DNA of 35,921 bases, from positions 1 through 35,921 of IMG/VR virus record IMGVR_UViG_3300037858_000060; one strand, 5' to 3'. This document shows, piece by piece, positions 16,131-20,935 of this stretch (positions are counted from its first letter, which is position 1; each line of letters opens with the position of its first letter). Source of the DNA: a virus. A program made the translations under genes and the position numbers. The notes under the pieces were generated by a model. The model saw only the letters and a program-made list of their open reading frames with translations. It was not told where the DNA came from and did not search any database.

Positions 16131-16957
16131 GTCATTTTGCGATAGCGATCGACCTCTCTGCTATTGAAGCGGCTGCCGAGCGGGCCGCGCGGCCCGATCT
16201 TGAGGTGCTGCGTCGGGGCATGATGAGTGCTGCGCAACACGTGCGCGATACGTGGGCCAGTGCCGTGCAGGGGGCGATGCTGCCGGGTATGACGCGCCCT
16301 GTGCACGATGATGACTATTACGAAAGCCTGCACACGGGAGAGGCGCTACAACTCCCTGAGCCACTCCACGCGACGGTGGTATGCACCTATGAGCACGTCG
16401 ATCGCGTAGAGGATGGGTACGCGGGATTTGATATCAAGCCCGGCCTGTTGCGAAGCAAGTCTGCCAAGACGGGCAAAAAGGGGCAAAAATACATCGCCGT
16501 GCCCTTCCGGCACATGACTCCACAAAAAGGCACCAGTGCCAACCGGGCGCACGGCGCGGTGATGCCGCCCGATGTGTACAAGATCGTGCGGAAGTCGGGC
16601 GCATTCCAGGATCCTGGCGATCCGGGGATGGGTGAGCAGCTCGGGCAGCGCAGCAAGCTGGCCGCGGTCGTGAACCTTCAGGCGCTCGCACGGGATGAAG
16701 AGGCGCCGATGGCAACCAATTACACCTGGAAATATGGCCTCTACCACGGCATGCGGCAGATCAAAAAGCAGTATGGCAAGACTGAACAATCTACCTACTG
16801 GACATGGCGCACGGTGTCAGAGCGCAGCGATCCGTCATCCTGGATCCACCCGGGGCAGGCAGCCAACCCGGTGATCGCCGCGGTGATCCGCGCCACGGAG
16901 GCGGATGTGCAGCGGATCGTGCTCGCTGCCGCGCGCGCCGCGTGGGGCGTGGAATAG
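16127..16957 (+). CDS. HK97 gp10-like neck/tail-completion protein
   Basis: ATG 16127 overlaps the preceding TGA (ATGA). An in-frame GTG at 16121 is possible but less likely. The product is 276 residues: an N-terminal helix with AIDLSAIEAAAERAA, a middle basic stretch, and a C-terminal block TYWTWRTVSE-R-SDPSSWIHPG. The pattern FRTVS..SDPxSWxHPG followed by a long helix is characteristic of gp10-like tail-terminator or completion proteins. It is the last gene of the left plus-strand block. Confidence 0.7.
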   Translation: MSHFAIAIDLSAIEAAAERAARPDLEVLRRGMMSAAQHVRDTWASAVQGAMLPGMTRPVHDDDYYESLHTGEALQLPEPLHATVVCTYEHVDRVEDGYAGFDIKPGLLRSKSAKTGKKGQKYIAVPFRHMTPQKGTSANRAHGAVMPPDVYKIVRKSGAFQDPGDPGMGEQLGQRSKLAAVVNLQALARDEEAPMATNYTWKYGLYHGMRQIKKQYGKTEQSTYWTWRTVSERSDPSSWIHPGQAANPVIAAVIRATEADVQRIVLAAARAAWGVE

Positions 16958-16961
16958 CACG

Positions 16962-16974
16962 GATGTGGTACAAT
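16962..16974 (+). promoter_or_regulatory. Possible extended -10 promoter after the neck genes
   Basis: GATGTGGTACAAT has a TGG directly before TACAAT and lies 5 nt after the last neck gene. It matches the element at 6946 in 11 of 13 bases. No convincing -35 is present. No good gene follows on the plus strand for over 500 nt. The intergenic stretch 16958-17138 otherwise contains only two inverted repeats, so any transcript would be a short non-coding RNA. Confidence 0.3.
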
Positions 16975-17051
16975 AGCGCCGTGCTTCTGCGTAGCTTTCC
17001 CTCCGTGCTGCCGGAAGCAAGCCCCATAGAACCCTACCTGACTACCTCCCT

Positions 17052-17081
17052 GGTGCGCCGGAGTTGGCCCTCCGGCGCGCT
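17052..17081. terminator. Strong GC hairpin, possible terminator without T-tract
   Basis: GCGCCGGAG at 17055-17063 pairs perfectly with CTCCGGCGC at 17070-17078 around a six-base loop, with two further weaker pairs outside. Neither strand has a T-tract after it, so intrinsic termination is uncertain. It lies between the end of the left plus-strand block and the end of the leftward repressor gene, where a two-way stop signal would make sense. Confidence 0.4.
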
Positions 17082-17115
17082 CCACCTTGTAAGCTCTGTT
17101 GCATTCTCCTGGCAG

Positions 17116-17145
17116 AATGTAATTTTTGAGCCGAAAAGTTACATT
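17116..17145. repeat. AT-rich inverted repeat at the 3' end of the repressor gene
   Basis: AATGTAATTTTT (17116-17127) and AAAAGTTACATT (17134-17145) are inverted copies matching at 11 of 12 bases, separated by GAGCCG. It overlaps the stop codon of the leftward XRE gene. Read leftward, the hairpin ends in no clear T-run, so it may be a weak terminator or a protein-binding palindrome (TGTAA-N-TTACA type). Confidence 0.5.
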
Positions 17146-17384
17146 TGGGACGCCTGATCTGGCACGACGTGCAATAACTGGCCAGGATCGACACCGAGTG
17201 CAGCCGCAACCGCCTCAAGCTGCTCCAGGTGCAGCATGCGCAACGGGCGCCCGTGCGACTTGCCGTCCGAGGTGCTATACCAATAGCGCCGCACGGCGCC
17301 CATGCTGACACCCGCGCGCTGCTGGAGGGCGTACATCGTGAGCCCCTGCGCTTCTGCGATCGGTTTGACGTTCAACCTAATCAT
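17139..17384 (-). CDS. XRE/Cro-C1-type transcriptional regulator
   Basis: The frame is open further up to 17447, but I place the start at the ATG at 17384, which follows AGAGGGGGGGG by 4 nt. The upstream codons overlap the promoter. The 81-residue product has a helix-turn-helix of the Cro/C1 type: LTMYALQQRAGVSMGAVRRYW includes the turn and recognition helix, followed by LEAVAAALGVDPGQLL, the conserved final helices of XRE domains. It is a minimal DNA-binding domain with no peptidase or ligand domain. It is transcribed away from the early block and shares a symmetric promoter with it. It probably represses both directions; which of the palindromes it binds is inferred. Confidence 0.85.
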   Translation of the reverse strand: MIRLNVKPIAEAQGLTMYALQQRAGVSMGAVRRYWYSTSDGKSHGRPLRMLHLEQLEAVAAALGVDPGQLLHVVPDQASQM

Positions 17385-17418
17385 TCCGCCCCCCCCTCTT
17401 TGTGCGATTTCCAGGCTT

Positions 17419-17461
17419 AGTATATACCGAGCTTGACATGTTGTCAATGAGGGTGTATACT
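17419..17461. promoter_or_regulatory. Mirror-image divergent promoter with shared -35 operator palindrome
   Basis: Rightward: TTGACA at 17433-17438, a 17-nt spacer, then TATACT at 17456-17461. Leftward: TTGACA on the minus strand at 17447-17442, a 17-nt spacer, then TATACT on the minus strand at 17424-17419. The two -35 boxes form the palindrome TTGACA-TGT-TGTCAA. The outer parts are also inverted copies: AGTATATACC against GGTGTATACT, 9 of 10 after reversal. A dimeric repressor bound at the centre (17440) would block both promoters at once. The rightward start would lie near 17468 and feed the gene at 17511. The leftward start would lie near 17412 and feed the XRE gene. Confidence 0.85.
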
Positions 17462-17510
17462 GACCTTAGTACATATGCTGTACTCGATACACATTAGGAA
17501 GGACACACCT

Positions 17511-17864
17511 GTGACTGATACCAATACCCCCTACACCGTGCACACCATTGTCTATGGGCCTGACTATGCCAATCAGGTTACGGCACTGCTGGGCACGCGC
17601 CCGTCCACGTATAATCAAGACGCCCGATTGATTGACAACTGTGTCCACACCGGCGGCGGCACGATGCGACCGTTTGATACCTACTGCAATCTCGCCACGG
17701 GCACGGTGGTCAAGATCATCCATTACGGCATATCGTATGACCGCGTGCTGGTCTTTGCTGATAAGGCTGCCTACGACGCCTATGAAACGGAGCGCCGGAG
17801 GGCACAGCTCGATCCTGAGACGCTCCGAATGCCGGGTGAAATGAAGATCACCCGCGGGTTTTAA
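17511..17864 (+). CDS. Hypothetical early protein, first gene of the rightward block
   Basis: GTG 17511 is preceded by AGGAAGGA at 17496-17503, which is better placed than the ATG at 17475. The 117-residue product is MTDTNTPYTVHTI..., with a Tyr/Thr-rich mixed alpha-beta pattern and a conserved-looking VKIIHYGISYDRVLVFADKAAYDAYE segment split by charged turns. I do not recognise the family. As the first gene after a strong consensus promoter controlled by the XRE site, it is probably expressed early, and might be an anti-repressor or a takeover protein. No motif proves that. Confidence 0.7.
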   Translation: MTDTNTPYTVHTIVYGPDYANQVTALLGTRPSTYNQDARLIDNCVHTGGGTMRPFDTYCNLATGTVVKIIHYGISYDRVLVFADKAAYDAYETERRRAQLDPETLRMPGEMKITRGF

Positions 17865-17865
17865 G

Positions 17866-17902
17866 TAGCAGCAGCAGCGGGTCGGCGCAGCGCTGGCCCG
17901 CC
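17866..17902 (+). repeat. 37-nt leader repeat, copy 1
   Basis: A 37-nt intergenic element identical to the one at 18121-18157, starting one base after the stop of the preceding gene. Its core can fold as GCGGGTC pairing with GGCCCGC (one G-U pair) around an AGCGCT-containing loop. It is followed here by CATACCACAAGGAG, the ribosome-binding site of the next gene. Confidence 0.85.
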
Positions 17903-17923
17903 ATACCACAAGGAGAAATCACG

Positions 17924-18118
17924 ATGCGACGCTACACCCCCACCTATGCAGTGAATTGGTATCACGACTGGGAGAACGAGGACGAAGATGGCTACAGCTT
18001 GACTGCGCTCTGCGATGCTTGCGCCCAGGCTGGTGCTGAAATCGACTGGGCTAGCGCCGATGATGGCACGACAGGGTGCTGTCATTGCTGCGGGCGCGAA
18101 CAAGAGGTCATCCGGTAG
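17924..18118 (+). CDS. Small Cys-rich (zinc-ribbon-like) acidic protein
   Basis: This is a 64-residue protein with AGGAG 8 nt before the ATG. It has an acidic N-terminal half (YHDWENEDEDGYS). It also has a cysteine set CDAC (residues 30-33) plus CCHCC (52-56) near the C-terminus, spaced as in a small zinc ribbon. It lies between the two identical 37-nt leader repeats. Small zinc-ribbon proteins are common in phage early regions as host-takeover or regulatory factors. The specific role is unknown. Confidence 0.7.
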   Translation: MRRYTPTYAVNWYHDWENEDEDGYSLTALCDACAQAGAEIDWASADDGTTGCCHCCGREQEVIR

Positions 18119-18120
18119 GA

Positions 18121-18165
18121 TAGCAGCAGCAGCGGGTCGGCGCAGCGCTGGCCCGCCTGGAAGGA
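18121..18165 (+). repeat. 37-nt leader repeat, copy 2, extended by ribosome-binding site
   Basis: Positions 18121-18157 repeat 17866-17902 exactly. Positions 18143-18165, ending TGGAAGGA, recur as 23 identical bases at 18965-18987. The element thus joins the hairpin module to the Shine-Dalgarno of the gene at 18173. Confidence 0.85.
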
Positions 18166-18172
18166 TAGCGAT

Positions 18173-18604
18173 ATGAGCGACCACAAACCCGTAAACCTGA
18201 CAATCCAGGGCACATACAGAGGCTATGCCGTGTCGGTATCCCTGGAATGCAGTCTTGACAGTCTGGATAAAGCCATAAACCGCCTGCAAGCACGCGGCGT
18301 TGAGCCGCTTGCAGATCCGGCCCCGAGCAAGGGCAGCAGCAGCAGCAAGGGCGGCGAAATACTCGAAGGTACCGTCTACAGTATCTACACGACACGAGCC
18401 GATCTGCTCAAGTTCGAAGTCGCAACCGGAGAAGCACAGCGTATGCCGTGTGTGGCGTTCGCTGGCACCGCTGAAAGCATCACACGGCATATTGAAATGG
18501 GCCGCGTTGTGACGCTCGAAGGCTACACAAAGCACGATGAGAAGTGGGGGAGCTCGTTTGTGGTCTCGAAGGTGCTCAAGTCTGAGCCGCGAGCCGCCGC
18601 ATAA
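18173..18604 (+). CDS. Putative OB-fold-like early protein
   Basis: This is a 143-residue protein; GGAAGGA lies 7 nt before the ATG. The N-terminal part (2-45) has two strands and a helix (YRGYAVSVSLECSLDSLDKAINRL). A Ser-rich linker (about 52-59) leads to a C-terminal beta domain with GTVYSIYTTR, then RVVTLEGYTKHDEKWGSSF. The last pattern resembles the final strands of OB-fold single-stranded-DNA-binding domains. A nucleic-acid-binding role is plausible but not proven. It lacks the acidic tail typical of true SSB. Confidence 0.6.
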   Translation: MSDHKPVNLTIQGTYRGYAVSVSLECSLDSLDKAINRLQARGVEPLADPAPSKGSSSSKGGEILEGTVYSIYTTRADLLKFEVATGEAQRMPCVAFAGTAESITRHIEMGRVVTLEGYTKHDEKWGSSFVVSKVLKSEPRAAA

Positions 18605-18666
18605 CCGGCAGTAGAATGAAAGCAATACACGGCCTGGGTAGCCTGGGCCGCCAGAAAGGAACCACC

Positions 18667-19011
18667 ATGGAGGCGACCACCATGCATAGCGGCGTTGTCT
18701 GGTTTGACCGGGCCTGTGATGAACGACCTATGTATCGCAAGCCATTTCTGCTTCGTCTCCACACAGAGACAGCCCATCACGTTGTAACCGAGGCGTCGGT
18801 TGAGGCGTTTCTCCGCCGATGGATGAAACCGCAACGGCTGAACAATGGCACGGTGCCAATTGCGCAGAAGGTTGCAACGTATACCGCAGAGCTTGAGCAG
18901 CTCGGATATTGCTTTATCACGCGCCACGACAGCATGACGGGCCTGGAGGTCTACTATGTGCCGACAGCGCTGGCCCGCCTGGAAGGAGATTACCATGGCG
19001 ACATTTGTTAG
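18667..19011 (+). CDS. Hypothetical early protein
   Basis: ATG 18667 follows CCAGAAAGGA by 6 nt, so I prefer it to the ATG at 18616, which would cut into this leader. The 114-residue product is mixed alpha-beta, with no cysteine motif or membrane segment. Its last 9 codons coincide with a copy of the 23-nt leader element, so the coding sequence and the next gene's ribosome-binding site share DNA. I recognise no family. Confidence 0.6.
   Translation: MEATTMHSGVVWFDRACDERPMYRKPFLLRLHTETAHHVVTEASVEAFLRRWMKPQRLNNGTVPIAQKVATYTAELEQLGYCFITRHDSMTGLEVYYVPTALARLEGDYHGDIC
18965..18987 (+). repeat. 23-nt leader element, copy inside the end of a gene
   Basis: CAGCGCTGGCCCGCC followed by TGGAAGGA is identical to 18143-18165. 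Here it encodes the last residues (A-L-A-R-L-E-G-D) of the upstream gene and supplies the Shine-Dalgarno for ATG 18995. Confidence 0.8.
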
Positions 19012-19351
19012 TCCTGGCATCGTGCTCGACTATGAACCGAGTACCGATTGTTGGATAGCCAGCGCGCCGTACTATATGATAGGCAAGCACGCCGATGCGA
19101 GCGCCCTGGAGGGGGAAATCCGCGCGGCCTATTACAACCCTGATCCGTATTTTGTGGCTAACATTGTGAAGCGCGGCATCGAAGAGCTCAGGATCAAATG
19201 GGGATCTACAGTGGGCGATCTGCCGTTCCTGTTCATCGCGGGTGAGGGGCAAGAAGGATACCAGGTACCAGACAACTGGCTCGCAGAGTTTCAAGCCATC
19301 GCGGCCCGGTGGGGCTGGGAGACGTACGAACGTGAGGAAGCGGCATGTTAG
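18995..19351 (+). CDS. Hypothetical early protein
   Basis: GGAAGGAG precedes ATG 18995; the first in-frame ATG at 18956 lies inside the upstream gene and lacks a site. The 118-residue product has a short N-terminal beta region (IVLDYEPSTDCWIAS), then helices, ending in ARWGWETYEREEAAC. It overlaps the previous gene by 17 nt and the PP-loop gene by 7 nt, so it may be made together with that enzyme. The family is unknown. Confidence 0.6.
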   Translation: MATFVSPGIVLDYEPSTDCWIASAPYYMIGKHADASALEGEIRAAYYNPDPYFVANIVKRGIEELRIKWGSTVGDLPFLFIAGEGQEGYQVPDNWLAEFQAIAARWGWETYEREEAAC

Positions 19352-20349
19352 AAAGAGATGCAACGGGAGCAGTACAGCCCCCAGCGCCTCGCCTTGATCA
19401 ATTCAATCTGTTCCATGTGGGCATGTCAGGCGGTAAGGACTCCGCCGCGCTCGCGCTTTGGTCTTGGTATGAGAGTGGAATTCCACGCGATCAGATTCGC
19501 GTGGTGTTTTGCGACACCGGGAACGAAGACGCCCTGACCTATGCCTTTCTCGATTATCTGCGCGAATTATTTCCGATCGAAACGCTCAATCCAGAGTATG
19601 ATTTTTACGAGTTGGCCAACAAAAAAAAGCGGTTTCCGTCGCCCAAGGCGCAGTTTTGTACGCAATTCCTGAAAATCATCCCCAACCGGGAGCATATCAT
19701 GCGCCTGATGCGAGAAGGACATGAGGTGTGCAAACTGAACGGCGTGCGCCGCGAAGAAGGGCATAGCAGCAATACACGCAGCACCGCAGAGGCATGGGAG
19801 TTCGATGCGGGCCCGTACTGCTGGACACACCGTCCGCTGCTACACTGGACAATTGATGATATCTGGGAGATGCATCGGCGGTATCTCTCACTCGATCGGG
19901 TGTGTGATTTGATCGCCGACGATCCGACAATGCAGCCGGAGCGAAAACAGCAACTTATTGAGCGGATGCGCCAGAAGGGCGTGCCGCGCAACCCGCTGTA
20001 TGAAATGGGGGCCTCGCGCGTGGGGTGTTTCCCATGCATTAACTCTCGCAAAGCGGAACTGCGATCGCTAGCAAAGTTCCGCCCTGAGCGGGTCGATTAT
20101 CTTGAACAAAAAGAGCAAGAGATCCGCAATCGGCATGGGCGATCAACGTTCTTTGCGCGCACGCACGTGCCTGAGCACCTGCGAAGTCTGGAGGTATCAA
20201 CCGCCAGCGGTGAGACGGTCAAGGTGCCGACGATCCGCGATGTGATCGAGTGGGCACAGACGGCGCGGGGTGGGTGGCAGTTTGACATGGACTTCGATGA
20301 TGACGATTTGCCTGTAAGTGCCTGTGACGTAGGCGGTTTTTGCGAATAA
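19345..20349 (+). CDS. PAPS-reductase / DndC-like PP-loop ATP pyrophosphatase
   Basis: This is a 334-residue PP-loop enzyme. Residues 28-33 are SGGKDS, the ATP-pyrophosphatase loop. FCDTGNE (55-61) matches the adenine-binding strand. C105 in FCTQFLK, RREE (135-138) and GASRVGCFPC with C228 and C231 follow the PAPS reductase/DndC pattern, with enough cysteines for an iron-sulfur cluster (a further C near the C-terminus). CysH reduces PAPS to sulfite, while DndC activates sulfur for DNA phosphorothioation. Phage versions of this family often stand alone. No dndB, D or E partner or other sulfur gene is visible here. A nucleotide- or DNA-modifying role is possible but unproven. Confidence 0.85.
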   Translation: MLERDATGAVQPPAPRLDQFNLFHVGMSGGKDSAALALWSWYESGIPRDQIRVVFCDTGNEDALTYAFLDYLRELFPIETLNPEYDFYELANKKKRFPSPKAQFCTQFLKIIPNREHIMRLMREGHEVCKLNGVRREEGHSSNTRSTAEAWEFDAGPYCWTHRPLLHWTIDDIWEMHRRYLSLDRVCDLIADDPTMQPERKQQLIERMRQKGVPRNPLYEMGASRVGCFPCINSRKAELRSLAKFRPERVDYLEQKEQEIRNRHGRSTFFARTHVPEHLRSLEVSTASGETVKVPTIRDVIEWAQTARGGWQFDMDFDDDDLPVSACDVGGFCE

Positions 20350-20365
20350 CCAGAAAGGACACACC

Positions 20366-20650
20366 ATGATCACCTTCAATGAGCAGAGCGGCGGGTGCAT
20401 CGTTGCCCGCCTGCACACCCCCACCTGCGTGCAGATCCTTGGCAGCATCACGGCGCGCCCGGTGTCCGGCTCACGTCGCTGGCTCCCGGCCATGGTAACG
20501 CAATGGGGCCCGGATCGTTATCACTACGAGATCACGACACACACCGGCGATACAGCAACCTGCGAAACCTACACGGCGGCACAAGAGCACTTCCGCCACC
20601 TGGGGCAGGCGCTTCGTGCTGAGCTGTGCGGGGAAGGGGGCGCGGCATGA
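20366..20650 (+). CDS. Small hypothetical protein
   Basis: This is a 94-residue protein with the leader CCAGAAAGGACACACC before the ATG, the same sequence type as the leaders of the genes at 17511 (GGACACACC) and 18667 (CCAGAAAGGA). It is rich in Thr/Ala with an SRRWLPAMVTQW segment and a helical C-terminus. Nothing identifies a family. Its TGA overlaps the next ATG. Confidence 0.6.
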   Translation: MITFNEQSGGCIVARLHTPTCVQILGSITARPVSGSRRWLPAMVTQWGPDRYHYEITTHTGDTATCETYTAAQEHFRHLGQALRAELCGEGGAA

Positions 20651-20883
20651 GCTTTCGTCCGAAGGGTCGCCGCACGAAGGCGCAGCGCGCGGCGGATGCC
20701 TCGCTTCACGAGGTGCCAGCCCGCCCGGCGTGGCAGCGCGGTTGCTGTGCGGAGTGTGGCGCGCCGATCACCGGCCCGGGCGCTGGGGCGGCGCATGCCT
20801 TTCGCATCGTCTGCCAGACCTGCACGACGCGCGCCGCGGCGGCGTATTTTATGGTCAGTGAACACACAAAAGCCCCGGGGTAA
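20647..20883 (+). CDS. Small zinc-ribbon protein, last gene of the early block
   Basis: I use ATG 20647, in the ATGA overlap with the gene before, rather than the in-frame ATG at 20626. The 78-residue product has a basic N-terminus (FRPKGRRTKAQRA), then CAEC and CQTC pairs about 20 residues apart (a treble-clef or ribbon-type zinc site), and a short helix. Its stop lies within the stem of the converging terminator. Likely a nucleic-acid-binding factor; the partner is unknown. Confidence 0.65.
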   Translation: MSFRPKGRRTKAQRAADASLHEVPARPAWQRGCCAECGAPITGPGAGAAHAFRIVCQTCTTRAAAAYFMVSEHTKAPG

Positions 20884-20893
20884 TCCTCGGGGC
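20868..20893 (-). terminator. Terminator of the leftward tail operon (possibly two-way)
   Basis: GCCCCGGGG (20872-20880) pairs with CCTCGGGGC (20885-20893), with one G-U pair and a TAAT loop. On the minus strand the stem is followed by TTTT, so it ends the tail operon whose last gene stops at 20936. On the plus strand it comes at the very end of the early block, but the tract after it is only CTTCG, so rightward termination is weaker. Confidence 0.8.
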
Positions 20894-20935
20894 CTTCGTG
20901 TACGCCTGTGGTCTTTCAACCACTCTTATTATACC

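Follow-up and report, generated by a model that had tools for sequence, protein, structure and literature searches.

The whole stretch of viral DNA that was analysed, referred to here as the window, is 35,921 bases long, and tail and baseplate proteins are among its products. The region of interest is a 127-nt gap between two divergent genes, both of which are preceded by ribosome-site-like sequences. On the minus strand, with an ATG start, lies the sole leftward gene, encoding an 81-aa Cro/C1-type HTH regulator of the HTH_26 family (17139..17384). On the plus strand, the first rightward gene starts with GTG and encodes a 117-aa protein with a predicted alpha/beta fold (17511..17864). The gap is occupied by two predicted sigma70-type promoters, both reading TTGACA-17-TATACT. 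The rightward promoter (17433..17461, plus strand) consists of TTGACA at 17433-17438 and TATACT at 17456-17461, whereas the leftward one (17419..17447, minus strand) consists of TTGACA at 17447-17442 and TATACT at 17424-17419. Each matched the sigma70-type consensus at 11 of 12 positions, and each has a 17-bp spacer, which is the optimal length for sigma70 promoters. The two -10 boxes are separated by 31 bp. Taking transcription to begin 7 bp past each -10 box, the predicted starts fall at ~17468 (rightward) and ~17412 (leftward), ~56 bp apart.

An earlier note on this DNA had reported TTGACA-N17-TATACT on both strands, a fusion of the two -35 boxes into TTGACA-TGT-TGTCAA, and outer 10-mers (AGTATATACC and GGTGTATACT) forming inverted copies at nine of ten positions. 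All three were confirmed from the sequence. The promoters share DNA in the manner of overlapping divergent promoters, in that their -35 boxes interlock over 17433-17447, a palindrome that is the first candidate operator and is the same in the one viral relative described below. The site is probably an overlapping divergent sigma70 promoter pair, and the promoter and family searches supported its position beside a gene for a minimal HTH protein of the Cro/C1 type.

The observation is well beyond chance. Across the window, only these two sites scored at least 11/12, with one further site at 10/12. First-order Markov simulations (n=300) produced on average 0.053 sites of at least 11/12 in a window, and in none of them did an overlapping divergent pair arise. 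A chance origin of the pair was ruled out by these 300 simulations. The exact symmetry ascribed to the region held for the boxes only and did not extend to the whole of it: the 8-nt spacer arms agreed at 3/8 positions, which is about the chance level, and the outer symmetry is mostly that of the two -10 hexamers.

The description of the leftward product as a minimal 81-residue XRE protein was borne out, as it scored 28.8 bits against Pfam HTH_26 (PF13443), above the curated cut-off of 22. Its single-sequence structural model (pLDDT 77) resembled SaPI2 Stl, SinR, the C-proteins and P22 c2, with a best Foldseek E-value of 7e-4. A run of eight C residues at 17389-17396 (G on the coding strand) lies in the ribosome-site region of the gene and is seven residues long in the relative; translation might be tuned by slippage in this tract, or the run may reflect an error in sequencing. 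Beyond the other end of the gene, a hairpin followed by TTTTT on the plus strand (17100..17130) sits between the HTH gene and the converging structural operon. It is a possible terminator of weak predicted stability (z -1.36), and it was not reported by the terminator scan.

The relative, IMGVR_UViG_3300037726_000040 (viral, 30,564 bases), is identical to the window over the 43 bp that span both promoters. The architecture, which the earlier note had proposed to look for in related phages, was therefore present in the one relative found. This conservation says little about selection, because the nearby identity is ~99.5%. Protein scans for more distant viral relatives returned only the same record, and neither blastn of 16900-20900 nor tblastn of the HTH protein gave a match among 50,697 phage records. 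Two entries (L002 and L003) were omitted from the locus listing as copies of this relative.

The symmetry of the 43 bp would also suit a hairpin or cruciform element, such as an RNA structure or a site of replication or recombination, whose resemblance to promoters is secondary. As plus-strand RNA, the 43 nt are predicted to form 16 pairs (-17.2 kcal/mol, z -3.99), with a G-U pair in place of the one outer mismatch. However, two consensus promoters with spacers of precisely 17 bp, set between divergent genes, already account for the sequence without a hairpin, and the predicted transcripts begin outside it. No Rfam match was found in 16900-18200, and the sole relative, being identical over the 43 bp, carries no covariation information. 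We regard this reading as highly unlikely.

The rightward unit is a run of small genes. The first product, the 117-aa protein, could not be assigned to any Pfam, PHROGs or NCBIfam family; its low-confidence model suggested an alpha/beta protein with no apparent HTH-like arrangement, and the fold had no PDB match at E < 0.001. It is followed by a gene for a 64-aa protein without a clear family (17924..18118, plus strand) and by a ~2.19-kb accessory segment (18166..20354, plus strand), where the alignment to the relative breaks and no match was found. Within this segment lies a PAPS-reductase-like gene (19345-20349, plus strand; PF01507, 64.9 bits). Since the segment is missing from the relative, the cargo of the rightward operon is exchangeable. 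An intergenic repeat, AGCAGCAGCAGCGGGTCGGCGCAGCGCTGGCCCGCC, was observed at 17867-17902 and 18122-18157, ahead of two rightward genes, and the relative carries a variant of it with another loop.

An HTH protein beside divergent promoters, together with weak PHROG matches to phage repressors (phrog_4583, E 4e-4), recalls a lysis/lysogeny switch of the lambda type, in which two repressors oppose each other. Against this, no second HTH was found among the rightward proteins scanned, a set from which short or divergent proteins could escape and which comes from a possibly fragmentary record. None of the window proteins scanned was identified as an integrase, with the same reservation that the record may be incomplete. 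A switch of this type is improbable here.

Boxes, spacing, gene layout, HTH family and conservation in one relative were read from the sequence, and from these we infer promoter activity, exclusion, protein binding and the sign of feedback. It is fairly likely that the promoter pair is a control point between the one-gene leftward unit and the rightward accessory operon, with the repressor acting there. The leftward arm would drive the lone HTH gene and the rightward arm the accessory operon. Because each -35 box sits within the spacer of the other promoter, the holoenzyme would bind in one orientation at a time, and simultaneous occupancy is sterically unlikely given that the predicted starts are only ~56 bp apart. 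Competition between the promoters is expected, as both are near consensus. The repressor most likely binds this region and would set the level of both units. If it occupied the central palindrome, both promoters would be shut, resulting in negative autoregulation; this corresponds to homeostasis rather than to a switch.

A perfect inverted repeat, AGTACA-N5-TGTACT (17468..17484), coincides with the position predicted as +1 for rightward transcription and is a second candidate operator, as simple as the first, or possibly a 5' hairpin. It is unique in the window, and apart from the central palindrome the gap has no further perfect 6-bp inverted repeat, which raises the possibility that the true operator lies here and not at the central palindrome. 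Binding at 17468-17484 would shut the rightward promoter only and would free the leftward one by relieving competition, so that the repressor would raise its own promoter in a self-reinforcing either/or state. A switch is more natural with this operator, as only the rightward promoter is blocked. On the other hand, chance alone should yield ~0.4 such repeats per gap of this length (an arithmetic estimate), and the repeat is therefore a lead only. It was also absent from the words enriched upstream of HTH relatives. We hold this alternative as a tentative possibility.

The description of the site as a natural either/or switch found no support, as exclusion alone amounts to time-sharing without memory, and no opposing regulator was found among the rightward proteins scanned. 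The either/or property itself is plausible and of a kind already known. That one protein at 17468-17484, tilting the contest between two equally strong promoters towards its own and with polymerase competition replacing a second repressor, would yield a stable either/or state is unlikely.

We considered how relatives of the regulator are arranged in bacterial genomes. Sampling covered Chloroflexota, Bacillota and a few single genomes of other phyla. When the single protein was used as query (E 1e-5), 6/400 Chloroflexota genomes and 0/398 Bacillota genomes gave a match; a 7-row profile found relatives in 25/158 genomes of one Chloroflexota class. A Chloroflexota host of the virus is no more than hinted at. 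After duplicates and short regions had been removed, 40 distinct upstream regions of Chloroflexota relatives remained, and ten of these carried divergent promoters scoring at least 10/12 each; shuffled regions gave on average 0.12 such pairs per 40, with a maximum of 2. TTGACA was the most enriched 6-mer, occurring upstream of 18/41 relatives (window included) against 3.8 expected, and a search for an operator motif by word enrichment upstream of the relatives returned mainly pieces of TTGACA.

The Chloroflexota HTH_26-like loci (L228-L262) resemble the window in having a homologous regulator and TTGACA-like -35 boxes in both directions with ~17-bp spacing. They differ in that none is interlocked: seven of the ten pairs stand clearly side by side, back to back and without overlap, with 7-35 nt between the 5' ends of the -35 boxes, and the apparent overlap of the remaining three rests on poor -35 boxes. 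This regulator group thus habitually has predicted divergent promoters, and among the upstream regions seen the interlocked arrangement of the putative boxes is particular to the window. Because seven of the ten pairs do not overlap, overlap appears to be no conserved requirement, and the crossed layout is best regarded as a variant, given that the clear Chloroflexota pairs do not share it.

Among viral contigs, the palindrome was followed by TATANT at spacings of 16-18 in at least 118 loci. The counts, among the matches listed, were 13 at spacing 16, 99 at 17 and 12 at 18, whereas the control spacings of 19, 20 and 21 gave a flat 18, 13 and 17 (47 viral loci). A peak at 17 is typical of sigma70 promoters, and the sharp peak against the flat control indicates that the palindrome serves as a -35 box in general. 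For the comparison of downstream genes, sites without an open reading frame of the set size were dropped (15/124 with the right spacing, among the matches listed, and 12/48 with the wrong spacing), as were duplicate proteins. This left 90 viral downstream proteins, alongside a control set of 31 that was too small and varied for comparison. The commonest product was a late sigma factor, with 10 members among the 90 proteins listed; RecA and DUF6433 were among the 25 commonest of 38 Pfam families, and XRE was absent from those 25. The viral palindromic -35 box thus usually appears to drive genes other than XRE. Nine loci (L067, L081, L092, L102, L110, L122, L139, L146 and L163) carry viral genes of a single family that matches the late sigma factor; ahead of each gene stands TTGACA-N3-TGTCAA, flanked at spacing 17 by TATAAT in one direction and by TAGAAT in the opposite one.

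These viral loci bear on the reading that a single promoter of the pair functions in the host of the phage, the other being fortuitous. In most of them a good -10 box lies on one side only; TATANT on both sides at 16-18 was found in 5/118 (among the matches listed), versus 0/47 controls. In the window, by contrast, both sides score 11/12 at spacing 17 and each leads to a gene with a ribosome-site-like sequence, making a single functional promoter quite unlikely.

The interlocked layout was also sought in bacterial genomes. The earlier note had called such symmetry rare, which was an overstatement: exact matches to TATA-N7-9-TTGACA-N3-TGTCAA-N7-9-TATA occurred at 55 loci in the 84,980 genomes scanned. 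In 25 of these 55, which were pre-selected for TATA on both sides, TATANT lay at spacing 16-18 on both sides. A rough uniform-base expectation is ~2 matches in 257 billion bases, a figure that AT-rich genomes would raise. The pair adjoined XRE-DUF1232 genes in Bacillales (L171, L181, L202, L214, L218 and L220) and TetR genes in Lachnospiraceae (L175, L207 and L212). Regulator families were confirmed by Pfam for L171, L218, L202, L175 and L212 and assigned by sequence resemblance for the others; HTH-segment matches were 62-68% for L181, L211, L214, L217 and L222. These loci share with the window the interlocked -35 palindrome, a -10 box on each side and an adjoining regulator, but the regulators are unrelated to that of the window. 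As the layout occurs beside unrelated regulators, a -35 box readable on both strands may be an easy means of letting operator and promoter share their bases.

Several Bacillales loci form a near-perfect palindrome over the whole 43-47 bp, spacers included, in contrast to the 3/8 of the window spacers. Their spacer arms agreed at 7 or 8 of 8 positions in L198, L202, L214, L217, L218 and L220 (palindromic promoters at L198:51, L202:6038, L214:4635, L217:381, L218:5059 and L220:5069). The arms vary among species yet stay complementary, as if half-sites change together, and these promoters may be more unusual than the site in the window. The divergent gene beside the XRE-DUF1232 gene was of the LytR-CpsA-Psr type in L211 and PLD-like in L218.

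We fetched 24 Bacillales-class loci with an XRE-DUF1232 regulator. TTGACA-N3-TGTCAA was kept, with no second promoter of at least 10/12 detected, in L264, L269, L275, L279 and L283, and L277 carried a near-match with one mismatch. Two of these, L269 and L275, have the palindrome far upstream, and a different promoter was called there; other Bacillales XRE loci, such as L265, L267 and L280, had no such palindrome. The Bacillales XRE palindrome is likely an operator doubling as a -35 box. It serves as an analogy only, because the HTH family differs from that of the window. Two further observations concern other loci. In a Caldilineaceae genome (L180:2719-2759), the pattern lies inside a longer near-perfect inverted repeat that overlaps the start of a small ORF, which we take to be antitoxin-like. 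Near the TetR gene of L196 and L208, extra TGACAC-N2/3-TGTCA-like palindromes occur away from the promoter, which suggests that they are the TetR operator.

A literature search turned up neither an interlocked -35 palindrome nor any mention of these 15-mers; its thin coverage of subscription journals makes this weak evidence of absence. The site is a tidy variant of an already known type of control region and represents no novel class of switch. For plasmid pLS20, it is established that overlapping divergent promoters exclude each other (PMC4207663). Its Pc/Pr pair, controlled by RcoLS20, resembles the window in placing a repressor gene and its target operon on overlapping divergent promoters, and RNA polymerase itself takes part in the regulation, a feature shared with our reading of the window. 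The favoured arrangement in pLS20 sets the -10 box of one promoter on the -35 box of the other, the promoter strengths differ several hundred fold, and control includes DNA looping (PMC4207663). In the window, interlocking is confined to the -35 boxes, and each promoter is close to consensus.

The bidirectional promoters of E. coli and Salmonella resemble the window in their near-symmetric DNA and in two exclusive polymerase orientations, which are predicted for the window (PMC12825309, PMC10268837). They share a -10 element with starts 7-25 bp apart, as opposed to interlocked -35 boxes and ~56 bp here, and with its separate -10 boxes and widely spaced starts the window falls outside the Warman/Grainger definition of a bidirectional promoter (PMC10268837). 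In E. coli, competition is reported to matter only under strong transcription; the basal activity of five tested promoters was too low for it, but when one direction was strengthened the opposite one was repressed (PMC12825309). These weak promoters reached strong competition only through a better -35 box or added activators (PMC12825309). The window, in comparison, offers a clean natural case in which near-consensus promoters should compete strongly.
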